Below are positions 4,412 to 17,392 of a stretch of DNA of 20,767 nucleotides, one piece after another. The stretch is taken from the IMG/VR virus record IMGVR_UViG_3300025137_000377, positions 1 through 20,767 of that record. One strand, written 5' to 3'. The stretch's first letter is position 1. Each line of letters starts with the position of its first letter. The notes beneath the pieces were generated by a model that worked only from the letters and a program-made list of their open reading frames with translations, searched no databases and was not told where the DNA came from. The translations under genes were made by a program, and so were the position numbers. This DNA is from a virus.

Positions 4412-6672
4412 CAGTCGGCTCCCCCGTTATTTTGAACCCTTGTTTCTTCAATGTTGCTATCAAGTTTTTTAAGGCTTGATCCTGTGTCATCGAAGAGCTT
4501 ATCTCTGTAAGATCCACTTTCTTTGAGTTTGTTGATGCCATCTTCAGTCTTTATCTCTATTTCGTCATATCTACCGCTATTAGCGGCCCCTAAGTCTGCA
4601 ACAGCTATTTGATCTCCAGCTTTTGCAATGGCCAAAGCTTCGTCTAGCGAGTCGGTTACAACAACAGCATCTAAGTAATATTTGCCGTCATCTTCATTTA
4701 GCCATCCGCCAGCATGTACTCTAGTCTTCAAACCCATCTTATCATAGCCTTCATTTAGCTCAAATATGTTTTTAACTAGGTCTTGTGCGTCTTTATAGGA
4801 AAACTCTTTAGAATCTTTAACAATCTCTAACGATTTTAATGGAGCTACGCTATAGCCAGTAATAGGACTAGGCTTGCCATCTATGGAGTTTGTAAATCCG
4901 TCTGGGTTTTTTCTTATAAAATTATAAAGTTGTCCGCTTACTTGAGTCTTTACTAGGTCTGTTGCTTGTTTTGCATCTTCGATAACTGTAGGATCAGTTC
5001 TGCTCCCAGCCTGTAGGCTCTCGCCCTGTCCTTCAATGTCTTGAAGCTTGTTGACGAATTGTTCGATTTCGTCTGCTCGTTCGTTGAGTACCTTTGCATA
5101 ATCTCTTACCTCGTTTAAGTCTTTAATATTTGTTTTTCCGCCCCTTGGAATCATTTGATTGTAAGCCCATATAGCTGCCTGTCCTTCTTTTGGAGTAAAC
5201 CCTAGTTCATTAGAAGCTTCTGTAATCATTTGTTTTACAGTTACTATGTCTACAGGTTTGGCTGCTTTTTCTGCTTTACTTCCAAAACCGAAGAAATATT
5301 GCAGCATATGTCTATCTACTACAACCTCATCATCTGTACCTGTTCTCATAGCTTCTACAAAATCTGGTATCTTATTGCCACCAAAATAAGTTTCTATCCC
5401 GAAGCTTGTTGTAGTTTTAGGAAGGCCCATTCTTTCTCTTAGAGCTTTTTTAGATGCAATCTCACCAGTTTTTGCATCCATGACTCCTTCGAGTCTTTTT
5501 AGATTATCTACTACAGCAGGCACTAAAGGTAAGTCATCTACCGTTCTAGCTGCATCTCCAATATCTGCCGCTGATCTTGCATTAGCAAAAGTTCCGTATT
5601 CTTTAAAATACTCATAGACTTTTAGCGCCTTAGATATGTTCTCATCTACGCTAGTGTTTTGTGACGTGATTGCCACTATCTCTTCAAACAGATCTGCATC
5701 ATCTCCAAACAAGTCTTTTATCTTAGGTTTGTGTCTAATGTACCAATCCTTACCACTCTTAGCTTTTGTCATTCCGTCTAAGACTTGTTGCATACTAACC
5801 ACTACCTCTGAAGGTTTAGTAGTTTTATTTTTTAAGAAAGGATTTTCTGGTATCTCTGCTTTTCTTTCATATTCTAATAATTCTTTTTTGTTATAAGTAA
5901 TTAGTTTTAAATCTTCTGGTGTTGATGTTTTTTTATTAGCAAAAGATCTAAATAAAGGAAGAGCAACCTCTACTAACCCAGCAAGAGGTGAATCTGTTAT
6001 TATTGATTTGAATTTATCCTCAAACACATTGTGAGCTGTTAAATCTTTGTTTGGTGTTGCAAGATATACAAAGGTTGTTTGAGCCAAATTGTTTGCATTT
6101 TCTTCAGACAAAGCAAATAAATCTTTAAAAAACGTTGCTAAGTTTGGATCTCCTTGCACCTGTACAGTTCCTACCGTAGCTGCTTCAGCTGCTAACGCTC
6201 TCATAACGGTTGGTCTAATTCTGTTAAACATATTGTAATAACCAATACCTGGTATACCGTATTGAATAAGGCCTTCTGCTAAACCACCTGGAAGACCTTG
6301 CGTATCTCCTATATGATCATAAATTTTATTGTAAGCGTCGTTGTATTTTTTAAAATTCTCTTCATCTGCAATACCTGCTTCTACTAGCCCTGCAAAAATT
6401 AGTTGACCAGCTCCTTGAATTAACTTTGCTCCACCTCTTGCAGATCCTATACCGATGTCTACTATAGTGCTTCTAGTATCATCTTCAGCTTCTTTATCTT
6501 TTTGCATTTCAAACAAGGCTGATCTGTCCATCATAAGGTCTGGATTTTCTACTTGCATAATAGCTTTTAGTTTTGAATTATCTTTTAAGATATAACCTTG
6601 AGTGCTTAACGTGTAATCATCGCTATCTCTTGTGCCAATGTAATCTATAAATGCTTTGTCTATTTCATTCAT
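4411..6672 (-). CDS. Probable internal virion/ejection protein with two phage-type domains
   Basis: A 753-residue protein beginning 1 base after the stop of the 638-aa gene. Residues 71-100 and 125-150 are glycine-rich and hydrophobic and could contact membrane. Residues about 310-510 look like a globular domain that recurs in large proteins of phages and mobile elements. It starts with WYIRHKPKIKDLFGDDADLF, followed by VAITSQNTSVDENISKAL (333-350), VVVDRHMLQ (450-458) and LGFTPKEGQAAIWAYNQM (490-507). Residues about 600-695 resemble a second recurring domain: GYSVAP, then HAGGWLNEDDGKYYLDAVVV and GDQIAVADL. I cannot name an activity for either. Context between gp15- and gp16-like genes suggests it is packaged in the head and ejected. 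It may share the job that one large gp16 does in T7. A polyvalent enzyme-like effector is the alternative. Confidence 0.65.
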   Translation of the reverse strand: MNEIDKAFIDYIGTRDSDDYTLSTQGYILKDNSKLKAIMQVENPDLMMDRSALFEMQKDKEAEDDTRSTIVDIGIGSARGGAKLIQGAGQLIFAGLVEAGIADEENFKKYNDAYNKIYDHIGDTQGLPGGLAEGLIQYGIPGIGYYNMFNRIRPTVMRALAAEAATVGTVQVQGDPNLATFFKDLFALSEENANNLAQTTFVYLATPNKDLTAHNVFEDKFKSIITDSPLAGLVEVALPLFRSFANKKTSTPEDLKLITYNKKELLEYERKAEIPENPFLKNKTTKPSEVVVSMQQVLDGMTKAKSGKDWYIRHKPKIKDLFGDDADLFEEIVAITSQNTSVDENISKALKVYEYFKEYGTFANARSAADIGDAARTVDDLPLVPAVVDNLKRLEGVMDAKTGEIASKKALRERMGLPKTTTSFGIETYFGGNKIPDFVEAMRTGTDDEVVVDRHMLQYFFGFGSKAEKAAKPVDIVTVKQMITEASNELGFTPKEGQAAIWAYNQMIPRGGKTNIKDLNEVRDYAKVLNERADEIEQFVNKLQDIEGQGESLQAGSRTDPTVIEDAKQATDLVKTQVSGQLYNFIRKNPDGFTNSIDGKPSPITGYSVAPLKSLEIVKDSKEFSYKDAQDLVKNIFELNEGYDKMGLKTRVHAGGWLNEDDGKYYLDAVVVTDSLDEALAIAKAGDQIAVADLGAANSGRYDEIEIKTEDGINKLKESGSYRDKLFDDTGSSLKKLDSNIEETRVQNNGGAD

Positions 6673-13902: not shown

Positions 13903-14168
13903 GACTTCGTCCTCTCTATCCTTTGGTTTATTTCTCTTATAATGCTGTTTTGACCTTCTCTTGCGTAGCCATATGAGTTATCAAGCCCAGGTACCCAGGT
14001 TGGTTGTTCCAGCGTTTTGTGCATTAAATAGTTTAAAACTTTCTTGCCCTCTTCTGTGTCGAATGTTCTAGCAAATGCTTTATCTAACTCTATTTGATTG
14101 TCTTTTGGTTTCGATTTTCTTTTTTCTTCTAAGTCTAAAACCTCGATACCTTCCCATCCCGATGTCAT
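13899..14168 (-). CDS. Bbp19-like small phage protein
   Basis: An 89-residue protein sandwiched between portal and scaffold with ATGA overlaps on both sides. The core, AFARTFDTEEGKKVLNYLMHKTLEQPTWV followed by YAREGQNSIIREINQRI, fits the Bbp19-type family (named from a Bordetella phage), with an FxTxEGKKVLxxL helix and an EGQ..I.R.I helix. The function of the family is unknown to me. Its fixed place next to the portal suggests a head-assembly role. AAGAGG about 7 bases upstream supports the start. Confidence 0.7.
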   Translation of the reverse strand: MTSGWEGIEVLDLEEKRKSKPKDNQIELDKAFARTFDTEEGKKVLNYLMHKTLEQPTWVPGLDNSYGYAREGQNSIIREINQRIERTKS

Positions 14169-15760
14169 GCTTTAGCCTCTTGTTCTAGAGCTTCTTCTGG
14201 CTGTTGTATGTCTGGGCTAGGAGGCTGGCCACCCTGGTCCATCATCCCGCCTGTTATATTTGCTGTAGCCATAGCTTGCTGTACAATTTGTTCTTTTTCT
14301 TCTGGAGTATTTCTTAGCGATGCTGGTACTCCAAACTTATCAGCTATAAAACTAGCCACTTGATCTGGTTTTAATTCTGCAACCCCGCCAGGTCCAAGGC
14401 TATTCGCTATTTGTACAAACTGCATGACCTCGTTTACTTCTTCTAAATTTTGCGCTTTTGCAAGAGGAGACACAGGAGTTACTTTTACCTGTAAACCATT
14501 CACTTTGAGTGGCATTTGTATTAAACCTTTTTCGTCCATTATGCTTAGTGTTTTAGCTACAATAGGAACCATGGTTTCAGTAATTAATCTACCAAAGGCA
14601 GCTCCCATGTTCTGGGATAACTCTTTCATTCTCTCTACAATTTCTGTTGCTGATCTTGCTGACATGTTGTCAGGAGGCAAGGTGTCATCTAGCATTGTTT
14701 TTTTAATATTCATTCTAAGGTCATTTATAACAATCTGTGAAACGTTAAAGTCTCCAGACCTAGGCAAAGGAGCTAATGATGCGCCTTGAGGCCCACCGTT
14801 TCTTGCTACAGGTATAATAGAACCTGGCGATATTCTAATGTTAGATGGGTTAATTACTCCATCATCTGCTGCGGTATAAACCCCAGCGCAAGCGATAGAT
14901 GCATTTTTAAGCAACAGCTCCAAGGTTTTGTTGAGAGTTCTTATGTCTGGTAACGCAGAGACAAGGGGGCCTCGACCAAAAACTTCGCCTGGTAATTTCA
15001 TATACCTTGCAACAACCCAAGGAGACTGCCTCATTCTTCTAAAAACTAATTCTTCTGACGTTTTTTCATAAATAATGTGATAACAGTAATCGCCTCTGTC
15101 TGTATCAATAATGACAGATTCGAGAAGCTCAACCATTTCAGACGGCTTGTCTTCTATAATTCTTTGTATTGTGCTTGGTATTTTAGCATCTGGAAAAGTT
15201 CTTGTTATTGCTTCTGCTCTTACTTTATATTTTCTGTATACGTTATCAACAGTTCCATACGGCCCCTCTTCTAGTGCTAAAAGATATTGGGGAACAGGTG
15301 TAAACCTTATTGGAGTTGTGTCATCTCCTGGTTGTATCAAAATAGCCGCTGTACCAACAGATAGGTCTAATAAAAACTCACCCATAGCTAAATCGAAATT
15401 ACTCTGTCTCAAAATACTAAACATTTTGTCGCTATATAAATCAAGCGCCTGCTGAGTTTGTGTTTTGAATTTTTCTGGAATATCGTTACCTGGCTCAAGT
15501 CTACACCATTTTTTTACTGGCGGGAAAAGGCCTGACTGTATTCTGTTGGCAAATCTTTGTGTGGAGTGAATTGCTGTAGAATCGAACACATTGTTCATCT
15601 TGTCTTGGCCAGGCGCATTTCCTTCGTAACCGCCTTCATATAAGTTTCTCTGGGGGAGGGCGTATCTATAACAGTCCTCGTATATGTTTCTCCAAAGATC
15701 TTTTTTAGCAAAAGCTTTTTTCGATCTATCTAAAACTTGTCTAGGAGTAAGCTGTTTCAT
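14165..15760 (-). CDS. Portal protein (T7-type head-to-tail connector)
   Basis: A 531-residue protein whose start overlaps the previous stop (ATGA). The N-terminus carries the connector signature: a helix with DLWRNIYEDCYRYALPQRN, then DSTAIHSTQRFANRIQSGLFPPVKKWCRLEPG. Later segments such as SPWVVARYMKLPGEVFGRGPLVSALPDIRTLNK and SARSATEIVERMKELSQNMGAAFGRLITE are typical of this family's stem and wing. The C-terminus is Gln/Pro-rich. It forms the dodecameric ring at the packaging vertex, binding the large terminase and later the gp11-like adaptor. Length is close to T7 gp8. Confidence 0.95.
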   Translation of the reverse strand: MKQLTPRQVLDRSKKAFAKKDLWRNIYEDCYRYALPQRNLYEGGYEGNAPGQDKMNNVFDSTAIHSTQRFANRIQSGLFPPVKKWCRLEPGNDIPEKFKTQTQQALDLYSDKMFSILRQSNFDLAMGEFLLDLSVGTAAILIQPGDDTTPIRFTPVPQYLLALEEGPYGTVDNVYRKYKVRAEAITRTFPDAKIPSTIQRIIEDKPSEMVELLESVIIDTDRGDYCYHIIYEKTSEELVFRRMRQSPWVVARYMKLPGEVFGRGPLVSALPDIRTLNKTLELLLKNASIACAGVYTAADDGVINPSNIRISPGSIIPVARNGGPQGASLAPLPRSGDFNVSQIVINDLRMNIKKTMLDDTLPPDNMSARSATEIVERMKELSQNMGAAFGRLITETMVPIVAKTLSIMDEKGLIQMPLKVNGLQVKVTPVSPLAKAQNLEEVNEVMQFVQIANSLGPGGVAELKPDQVASFIADKFGVPASLRNTPEEKEQIVQQAMATANITGGMMDQGGQPPSPDIQQPEEALEQEAKA

Positions 15761-16029
15761 GTCTTTTTATGCCTATTTGCAAAATTTCTAGCGCTTTGTT
15801 TGCTTCTAAATCCCCATGCTTTCAATGCTAATGATAGCCTAGTAGGTTCGCCTTTACTAGTTTTCTCTGATCCTGCCATGCCTCCAAACCTTGCAGCAAA
15901 AGAAACTCTTCTGGGGTTAGTTCCTGTTTTTACGGGAGATTTTAAATTAGATCCTTCGGTTTTTTTGAAATGATTCCTGCCAGCTTCATTTAATCCTCCG
16001 CCAGGGTTTTGAAATTTTTTAGCAACCAT
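15757..16029 (-). CDS. Small basic conserved phage protein (DUF6321-like)
   Basis: A 90-residue, Arg/Lys-rich protein. Its ATG shares a base with the stop of the 20-aa ORF before it (TAATG). The sequence follows a pattern I recognise in many phages: GGGLNEAGRNHFKKTEG, NLKSPVKTGTNPRRVSFAARFGGM, then KGEPTRLSLALKAWGF and SARNFANRHKK. I associate it with DUF6321, a name recalled and not checked. Function is unknown. Its size, charge and place before the portal suggest a DNA-associated virion or assembly protein. Confidence 0.7.
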   Translation of the reverse strand: MVAKKFQNPGGGLNEAGRNHFKKTEGSNLKSPVKTGTNPRRVSFAARFGGMAGSEKTSKGEPTRLSLALKAWGFRSKQSARNFANRHKKT

Positions 16030-16091
16030 TACTTATATTTTTTGGCTTTTTTCTTTTTTTTCATTTTAAATTTGTAGTGAGTGCCTGGCAT
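16029..16091 (-). CDS. 20-residue lysine-rich mini-protein
   Basis: A 20-codon ORF beginning MPGTHYKFKM and ending in a run where 8 of the last 10 residues are Lys. AGGA lies about 7 bases before the ATG, and the TAA stop shares its last base with the ATG of the 90-aa gene (TAATG). A good ribosome site plus exact coupling make it a real gene candidate despite its size. I recall similar MPGxHY-plus-poly-Lys mini-proteins in marine podoviruses. The function is unknown; possibilities are DNA or RNA binding, or simple translational coupling. Confidence 0.6.
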   Translation of the reverse strand: MPGTHYKFKMKKKKKAKKYK

Positions 16092-16103
16092 TTTTTATCC
16101 TAT

Positions 16104-16256
16104 CTAAGCTTTTTTCTTTTTTGGGAAACCTGCTTTCATGTTGGCATAAGCCTTATCTGAAATCGTAGATTCTTTTTTAGTCCTACTTGTTCCTTCTTTT
16201 TTTCTTTGGTTAATATTATAATACAAACCTTTTTTTACTTTTCTTCTTCTAATCAT
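16104..16256 (-). CDS. 50-residue basic protein
   Basis: A 50-codon ORF starting MIRRRKVKKGLYYNINQRKK. It continues with a GTSRTKKESTISDKAYANM core and ends in GFPKKKKA. About 40% of residues are Lys or Arg. The core GTSR-K-STIS-KAYANMKAGF is a pattern I remember from small proteins of marine phages. The start overlaps the stop of a 19-aa ORF (ATGA) and no clear ribosome site precedes it, so it is probably translated by coupling. Function is unknown. Together with its neighbours it forms a cluster of basic mini-proteins ahead of the portal. Confidence 0.65.
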   Translation of the reverse strand: MIRRRKVKKGLYYNINQRKKEGTSRTKKESTISDKAYANMKAGFPKKKKA

Positions 16257-16312
16257 GTTTGTTTTTTTCTGTGCCTTGGATTGCGGATATATTCTTGTTC
16301 ATGATGATCCAT
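16253..16312 (-). CDS. Possible 19-residue peptide (coupling ORF)
   Basis: The ORF encodes MDHHEQEYIRNPRHRKKQT. It starts 3 bases after the stop of the 102-aa gene, and its TGA overlaps the next ATG (ATGA), which fits the coupling style of the operon. Against it: the ribosome site is weak, and a second 17-codon ORF in another frame (start at 16302) covers nearly the same bases. Only one, or neither, may be used. Confidence 0.35.
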   Translation of the reverse strand: MDHHEQEYIRNPRHRKKQT

Positions 16313-16315
16313 GAT

Positions 16316-16624
16316 CTATCCAAGTTTACTGTTTGTGTCTCTAGGGTTTCTTATAGGAGAATAATTAGATCCAGATGCAGCAATATTTGCGCTACCTCCT
16401 ATTAAAGATTTTCCTGCCATTCTAGTTGATCGCCTACGCTTAGTTAAGTTTCTAGAAACAGTTTTTCTATCTGCTTCTGTTTTTTTAGGAGCATCTGTTT
16501 TGGATGCAATTTCTGATCTAGTCTCTGCTGATCTACGAGGTGTGTCGCCTCCCGATAGTCCACGAATTGTTCTAATTGGTACGTTTACAGCCTTCTTAAT
16601 AATTTTTGTTACTGAGCCTCCCAT
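16316..16624 (-). CDS. Basic glycine/serine-rich protein, 102 aa, unknown
   Basis: A 102-residue protein whose ATG shares a base with the preceding stop (TAATG). The N-terminus (MGGSVTKIIKKAVNVPIRTI) could form a basic amphipathic helix. A charged stretch with many Arg and Lys follows, including NLTKRRRSTRMAGKSLI. The C-terminal 30 residues are Gly/Ser/Asn-rich and look disordered. No catalytic motif is visible. The high positive charge and position between terminase and portal suggest a minor virion or DNA-associated protein. Confidence 0.65.
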   Translation of the reverse strand: MGGSVTKIIKKAVNVPIRTIRGLSGGDTPRRSAETRSEIASKTDAPKKTEADRKTVSRNLTKRRRSTRMAGKSLIGGSANIAASGSNYSPIRNPRDTNSKLG

Positions 16625-16890
16625 TAGCTTATCCTCCTCTGGTCATCATATGGATTTCTGACTGACGTATCTCCAGCCAAATCTGTTCCTACTCCAAGTG
16701 CTGGAGCTTGTCTGTCTTGTGAGTATAAAAGTCTAGCGTTTTTTCTTCTTGCCCTAGAGCTTGCCGAAGTTTTCCTTAATTCTTTTTTTTCTTTATCGTC
16801 AGCTTTTCTTTCTCTTTCATCAAGAGCAGCATCAGTTGCCGCCACTTGAGGGGGCGGATTGTATTTCGGCGTTTTAAAAAGTCCCGACAT
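16624..16890 (-). CDS. Small charged protein, 88 aa, unknown
   Basis: I choose the ATG at 16890 (MSGLFKTPKY) because GAGG lies 5 bases upstream and it begins directly after the GNAT-like stop. An ATG at 16902 would give a 92-aa product overlapping that gene. The N-terminus is proline-rich (KYNPPPQV). Then comes a long Glu/Lys/Arg helix (residues about 22-52, DERERKADDKEKKELRKT) and a polar tail. I recognise the general layout (MSGLF-KTPK-PPP plus charged helix) from small phage structural proteins but cannot assign a role. Confidence 0.65.
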   Translation of the reverse strand: MSGLFKTPKYNPPPQVAATDAALDERERKADDKEKKELRKTSASSRARRKNARLLYSQDRQAPALGVGTDLAGDTSVRNPYDDQRRIS

Positions 16891-16891
16891 A

Positions 16892-17392
16892 TTACCTCGC
16901 AAATATTCTACTATACATTATCATATCTTTTTTATCGTATGTATACCTTTTTAAAAAACCTTCTTTTTCAAATTTCATAGCTTTTATCCACTTGAGAGCA
17001 ATAATGTTTTGTGCATCTACAGTTACATGTATTCTATGTAAATCCATATCTTTTGCTATTTCTTCCATGAAGTTCAAAGATCCTTTGTGAAAAGGAATCC
17101 TCCATTGCTTTATTTTATTTACATCTGGTAGTAACCAACACTCAGCTACATGAGGCCATTGTTCTACAACACCAAAACAAACAATGGGCTGCCCGTTATC
17201 TAAAATACAGTAAGCTACGCCTTGATTTCTTGCACACTCTAAATATTCTCTATAGTTAGGAATGCTCTCTAAACTTCGCTTGTCCATTTCGCCGAGCTTC
17301 ATCATGTTAAGAAAAAACCCTTCAAAGTTGACAGCTGTTAACCCTTTTACTTTATTTATACCTAGAACAGTTTCTAGTTTGTCAAGATTCAT
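16892..17392 (-). CDS. GNAT-like protein (T7 gp13-like)
   Basis: A 166-residue protein starting in the TGA stop of the large terminase gene (ATGA). Its layout follows a GNAT fold: GVAYCILDNGQPIVCFGVVE (58-77) for the central strands, a variable PHVAECWLLPD region, and the C-terminal signature HRIHVTVDAQNIIALKWIKAMKFEKEGFLKRY (119-150), as in acetyltransferases that end with an N-x-x-A-x-x-W...GF-x-x-EG pattern. The usual acetyl-CoA loop (Q/R-x-x-G-x-G/A) is not clear; KIKQWRIPFHKG stands in its place, so catalysis is uncertain. T7 gp13 is a comparable small GNAT-type protein needed for assembly. Here it lies between terminase and portal. Confidence 0.72.
   Translation of the reverse strand: MNLDKLETVLGINKVKGLTAVNFEGFFLNMMKLGEMDKRSLESIPNYREYLECARNQGVAYCILDNGQPIVCFGVVEQWPHVAECWLLPDVNKIKQWRIPFHKGSLNFMEEIAKDMDLHRIHVTVDAQNIIALKWIKAMKFEKEGFLKRYTYDKKDMIMYSRIFAR

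Follow-up and report, generated by a model that had tools for sequence, protein, structure and literature searches.

Six small genes upstream of the portal gene

The window, a 20,767-nt stretch of DNA from an uncultured marine phage (IMG/VR record IMGVR_UViG_3300025137_000377), carries on its minus strand, in this order, genes for the large terminase, a GNAT-fold protein, six small proteins, the portal and further head and tail proteins. The GNAT-fold protein (166 aa; positions 16892–17392) is a relative of the T7 gp13 family, and the portal (head–tail connector) protein (531 aa; 14165–15760) matches PF12236 (3e-98). Between them lie the genes for A88 (88 aa; 16624–16890), B102 (102 aa; 16316–16624), X19 (19 aa, MDHHEQEYIRNPRHRKKQT; 16253–16312), C50 (50 aa; 16104–16256), D20 (20 aa; 16029–16091) and E90 (90 aa; 15757–16029), all on the minus strand, which confirms the six proteins, their lengths and their placement as given in an earlier, sequence-only reading of this DNA. 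The same reading held that the genes are coupled by stop/start overlaps and co-expressed with the portal and packaging genes; they are indeed co-oriented with these and tightly coupled, with overlaps of 1–4 nt and gaps of 1–12 nt. Specifically, A88 starts 1 nt after the GNAT gene and overlaps B102 by 1 nt; X19 follows B102 after 3 nt and overlaps C50 by 4 nt; D20 follows C50 after 12 nt and overlaps E90 by 1 nt; and E90 overlaps the portal gene by 4 nt. A scan for promoters and terminators revealed no convincing element dividing the operon. The strongly basic character ascribed to the whole group holds for B102 (net charge +16), C50 (+15), D20 (+10) and E90 (+16), but not for A88 (+6) or for X19, which is weakly basic here.

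Scanning viral contigs via the portal yielded 80 related loci, in 59 of which both the GNAT and portal genes could be placed; one of the 59 is identical to the window and another is the cultured Methylophilales phage MEP301, in which the A-like and B-like proteins were assigned by profile match and position. Homologues of A88, B102 and X19 occupy the same locus in 59, 58 and 56 of these, respectively, and the E90 family is present in most. A search at this locus for the 20- and 50-aa proteins, as had been proposed, recovered the C50 family in 37 loci and the D20 family in 41, although members of the latter usually measure 40–46 aa rather than 20. Median pairwise dN/dS, calculated across loci that, as in the conservation counts, are not mutually independent, is 0.40 for A88, 0.66 for B102, 0.51 for X19, 0.19 for C50, 0.14 for the D20 family and 0.21 for E90. 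Given the presence of homologues in the same place and dN/dS values below 1, the six frames are not fortuitous: all are real genes, arranged in two blocks (A88/B102/X19 and C50/D20/E90). Lack of conservation in relatives, which the sequence-only reading had named as the finding that would speak against it, is not what we observe, and X19, regarded there as merely possible, proved to be a gene in its own right.

That the frames are open merely by chance, in DNA rich in A, T and Lys codons, would be in line with the abundance of AAA codons in the region, with the very short 19- and 20-aa frames and with the absence, upon inspection, of a clear ribosome-binding site in front of C50 and E90. However, chance does not account for conserved position, order and sequence combined with purifying selection, which refute this explanation for five of the six frames, D20 as a free-standing 20-aa product being the exception; as an account of the region, it is highly improbable. 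The D20 start is preceded by AGGA. Of the three frames suspected to fall below annotation cut-offs, the 19- and 20-aa ones do so (fewer than 30 codons), and the 19-aa gene, conserved throughout a phage clade, lies beneath what automatic annotation reports; by contrast, 42–45-aa homologues of C50 are annotated in Syn5, HTVC019P and MEP301, though not in HTVC010P. In the unannotated HTVC010P homologue (L173, ~4990–5130; 26.77–26.91 kb), an A-residue run interrupts the frame, and sequencing error, pseudogene and frameshifting are indistinguishable there.

The R-N-P motif and the comparison with T7

The order GNAT–A–B–X ahead of the portal is fixed in the window and its relatives. All three small proteins of this block carry the tripeptide R-N-P (all codons on the minus strand), near the C-terminus in A88 (residues 78–80; 16651–16659) and B102 (residues 92–94; 16343–16351) and at residues 10–12 of X19 (16277–16285). 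As estimated from shuffled window proteins, the chance of finding it in all three is ~1e-5. Among distinct relatives, R-N-P is present in 28/28 X, 40/45 B and 29/42 A proteins (39/42 for A when R-D-P is counted), and R[ND]P is kept in A, B and X together in 52 of 56 loci; in MEP301, R-N-P is absent. Other large ORFs from the same loci, most of which are mutual homologues, contain no instance of it in 116,510 aa. The A and B profiles match one another with a probability of 94%, a value to be treated with caution because both are of low complexity. In the X alignment, R-N-P accounts for the sole invariant columns, and the X homologues, 18–48 aa in length, always contain it. Their charge is neutral to acidic (median 0, down to −11), and this range, from basic in the window to strongly acidic in relatives, indicates that X is, by composition, not a DNA-condensing peptide. 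Some X homologues extend beyond R-N-P into a Cys-rich stretch (CxC...CxC) that is possibly metal-binding (L045:2039–2149, L073:4138–4254 and L080:4977–5099). A pairwise search with A88 gave no match in cultured phages, and we found no description of an R-N-P tag.

The GNAT protein, which heads this block, matches phrog_308 (7e-8) and phrog_4177 (1e-15), the former being the family matched by T7 gp13 itself (1e-42), and its AlphaFold model (pLDDT 88) retrieves RimI/RimL-type enzymes in Foldseek at ~1e-9. The likeness to T7 gp13 and the phage GNAT family thus lies in the profile match and the GNAT fold, whereas direct hhalign against the T7 gp13 sequence was not significant. In HTVC010P and BcepC6B, homologues directly follow the tail genes, as does T7 gene 13, which lies after the nozzle gene; in the window, by contrast, the GNAT gene adjoins A and B before the portal. 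Inspection of 16 homologues did not reveal the acetyl-CoA loop R/QxxGxG/A, the expected place being taken by FHKGA/S, so that acetylation by this protein is speculative. A relationship between T7 gp7 and the GNAT protein was considered as well and rejected, the comparison being not significant.

In T7, gp6.7 and gp7.3 are encoded directly upstream of the portal, the position held by A and B in the window and its relatives. Cryo-EM places gp6.7 at the portal/core, with 12 copies bridging the two, and gp7.3 at the adaptor/nozzle, where its C-terminal loops are anchored in the nozzle and touch the DNA end (PMC11784390). Both sets comprise two small polar proteins of ~90–100 aa just before the portal (phrog_1391 and phrog_1320 for gp6.7 and gp7.3), and, in view of the T7 gene location and the cryo-EM placement, we infer by analogy that A and B may function like gp6.7 and gp7.3. 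The anchoring part of gp7.3 is its C-terminal tail, and R-N-P could serve likewise here; nevertheless, the T7 proteins lack R-N-P, and the window has a third, 19-aa partner. Homology between A88/B102 and gp6.7/gp7.3 is not supported by hhalign, which was not significant for A or B against either T7 protein, and the comparison is retained as one of position and size. For B, the phrog_1320 profile was matched weakly, by only 3/29 members (best 2e-4), with a reversed-sequence control of ten hand-typed, approximate sequences that carries little weight.

By this analogy, A88, B102 and X19 would act at the portal/tail axis of the virion as small peptides that are probably unfolded for the most part; they would bridge ring-shaped parts differing in symmetry and, early in infection, exit the particle. 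The shared R-N-P peptide might dock each of the three into a single repeated site on a ring, in which case the 19-aa gene would encode little beyond the docking peptide. The fixed linkage to a GNAT protein of the T7 gp13 family would also suit A, B and X working with the GNAT protein to chaperone the assembly of portal, scaffold or nozzle without being retained in the particle, the R-N-P tail being a docking tag that is subsequently released, and gp7.3 itself has been described as a nozzle assembly scaffold (PMC11784390). We nevertheless consider such a role unlikely, given that T7 virions contain gp6.7 and gp7.3 and eject them, that both are present in the virion proteome of the related phage phiPsa17 (PMC4517105), and that the virion data for DUF6321 described below would be left unexplained. 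Within the preferred reading of A88, B102 and X19 as peptides of the portal–tail axis, a docking code can be tentatively envisaged, whereby the products of three consecutive genes offer the same R-N-P to equivalent positions on a single symmetric ring of the virion, formed by the portal, adaptor, nozzle or GNAT-like protein, with copy number and filling order setting the assembly or opening of the axis. A short motif common to three neighbouring proteins provides a concrete docking hypothesis for the portal–tail axis.

The C50–D20–E90 cassette and DUF6321

The sequence-only reading assigned no described function to these proteins, which stands insofar as function is unknown throughout both phrog_25774 and DUF6321; however, the 50- and 90-aa proteins do belong to these catalogued families. 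C50, with its KKGLYxNI module, falls into phrog_25774 (4e-21, profile positions 3–41 of 42), a family with at least 498 confirmed viral loci, and E90 is a DUF6321 protein (PF19846; 1.2e-21; 77.6 bits against a gathering cut-off of 28.5, profile positions 2–72 of 72), a domain matched in 409 of 50,697 phage records. Sequence searches of the PDB with the A, B, C and E families returned nothing, and Foldseek with DUF6321 gave no PDB match at E ≤ 0.001, its good matches in BFVD being DUF6321 proteins. No paper naming DUF6321 was found in the literature library searched, and a term search of the P-SCSP1u cryo-EM paper found no mention. The opening of D20 recurs in a family whose members in relatives continue into either an EF-hand/dockerin-like stretch or a different tail, and it looks like a shortened form of the 40–46-aa peptide of its relatives. 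The Lys-rich opening with its two alternative C-terminal halves is exemplified by L036:4907–5047, L034:5492–5629 and L008:5491–5616. A further conserved peptide of 36 aa (FGHTPREWKRR...), the C-terminal half of which is hydrophobic and probably spans a membrane, is encoded just ahead of DUF6321 in L008 (5616–5726) and 33 other loci and is absent from the window.

Comparison with locus L003, whose portal is 92% identical to that of the window, provides a direct view of exchange. DNA homology in blastn breaks off within the end of X19 (window position 16266) and picks up again within D20 (16043), so that the segment 16043–16266 (minus strand), comprising C50 and most of D20, is replaced in L003 by a stretch that holds a DUF5824 gene together with the beginning of a gene for 46 aa. 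The second block is, therefore, an exchangeable cassette.

C50 and DUF6321 are also genomically linked, the two families neighbouring each other in phages that are unrelated. In a separate scan of 80 C50 loci, DUF6321 was present in 47, always on the same strand and in either order, with 39 lying within 500 bp of C50, a distance that covers only 17% of the searched flank. The two are adjacent in MEP301 and HTVC200P, and in phrog_11180 and phrog_28131 a GLYANI module and DUF6321 occupy separate positions of one profile, as in a fusion. In the cyanophages S-RIP2 and P-SCSP1g, the DUF6321 gene is followed by one for a GLYANIHAKRKRI protein, the start of which resembles C50; this cyanophage family (phrog_16028) has its opening in common with phrog_25774, a likeness short of a proven relationship. 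In an S-RIP2 protein (L087:5193–5705), a GLYANIHAKRKRI module is fused with an outer-membrane-like beta barrel of the cyanophage type (Phage_OMP).

A recognizable head or packaging gene is found in at least 37 of the 80 C50 loci. C50/DUF6321 genes lie between the scaffold and capsid genes in HTVC200P and HTVC019P, between the capsid and adaptor genes in P-SCSP1g, and between the small and large terminase genes in S-CREM2 and Hodr, the terminases of Hodr being our reading of unannotated genes; C50 of Syn5 and the S-SCSM1 gene are located just or close before the large terminase. C50 is also found away from head genes, for instance beside dnaA-like genes in HTVC010P-type phages.

Two published cyanophage virion proteomes report DUF6321 proteins. 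For S-CREM2 gp137, which has a C-terminal DUF6321, mass spectrometry of CsCl-purified virions yielded 4 unique peptides and 4.1% coverage (PMC10665884, Table 3), and S-SCSM1 ORF29, also with a C-terminal DUF6321, is annotated as 'virion protein'. Because S-SCSM1 ORF91 carries the same label and is named as detected by mass spectrometry (PMC9602691), we take this annotation to denote detection. Both papers caution that abundant infection proteins may co-purify with virions (PMC10665884, PMC9602691), and the detected domains are C-terminal parts of ~500-aa proteins, whereas E90 is a stand-alone protein of 90 aa; for the 90-aa form, the data amount to support, short of proof. A third candidate for a virion-detected DUF6321 protein, S-SZBM1 protein 190, was dismissed, as it does not contain DUF6321. 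The large cyanophage DUF6321 proteins (L175:2882–4213 and L231:4663–6216) include further short basic modules, such as YxKVKSRYSVWPSAYASGALVKC, that look repeated and are shared by different phages.

These observations bear on whether C50, D20 and E90 might instead work inside the cell, as late-expressed peptides that bind RNA, DNA or ribosomes or serve host takeover and are merely co-transcribed with head genes. Their strong net charge, the dnaA-like neighbours of C50 in HTVC010P-type phages and the highly exchangeable nature of the module zone are all compatible with such a role, yet the reported presence of DUF6321 proteins in two virion proteomes and the repeated terminase, scaffold and capsid neighbourhoods argue against it and render it rather unlikely. 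We favour a virion location, with C50, D20 and E90 as exchangeable, strongly basic modules that would be packaged in or on the head and possibly contact the packaged DNA there, C50 and DUF6321 perhaps working as a pair. Taken together, the virion proteomics, the terminase and capsid neighbourhoods and the recurring partner C50 provide a first functional assignment of DUF6321 as a virion-associated module.

A proposed late morphogenesis operon segment with two blocks

The best joint explanation of the region, to which we assign a probability of roughly one half, is that it is a segment of a late morphogenesis operon with two functional blocks. In this view, small peptides of the portal–tail interior, serving in the virion or in its assembly, would be followed by virion-associated basic modules. 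The suggestion that the cluster encodes head-assembly or ejected peptides fits this picture, considering the DUF6321 virion proteomes and the T7 gp6.7/gp7.3-like position of the first two genes; the notion of a single set of basic, DNA-condensing peptides does not, because there are two blocks and the 19-aa family is not basic. Overlooked tiny frames are thereby turned into specific, testable virion candidates. For specialists, the likely surprises are the R-N-P motif with its 19-aa gene and the converging evidence on DUF6321 as a virion-associated module. Elsewhere in the window, the plus strand of positions 511–1323 contains a frame with repeated SDxxSxVAxVLxS, which probably lies antisense to a repetitive gene located at the fragment's left end.
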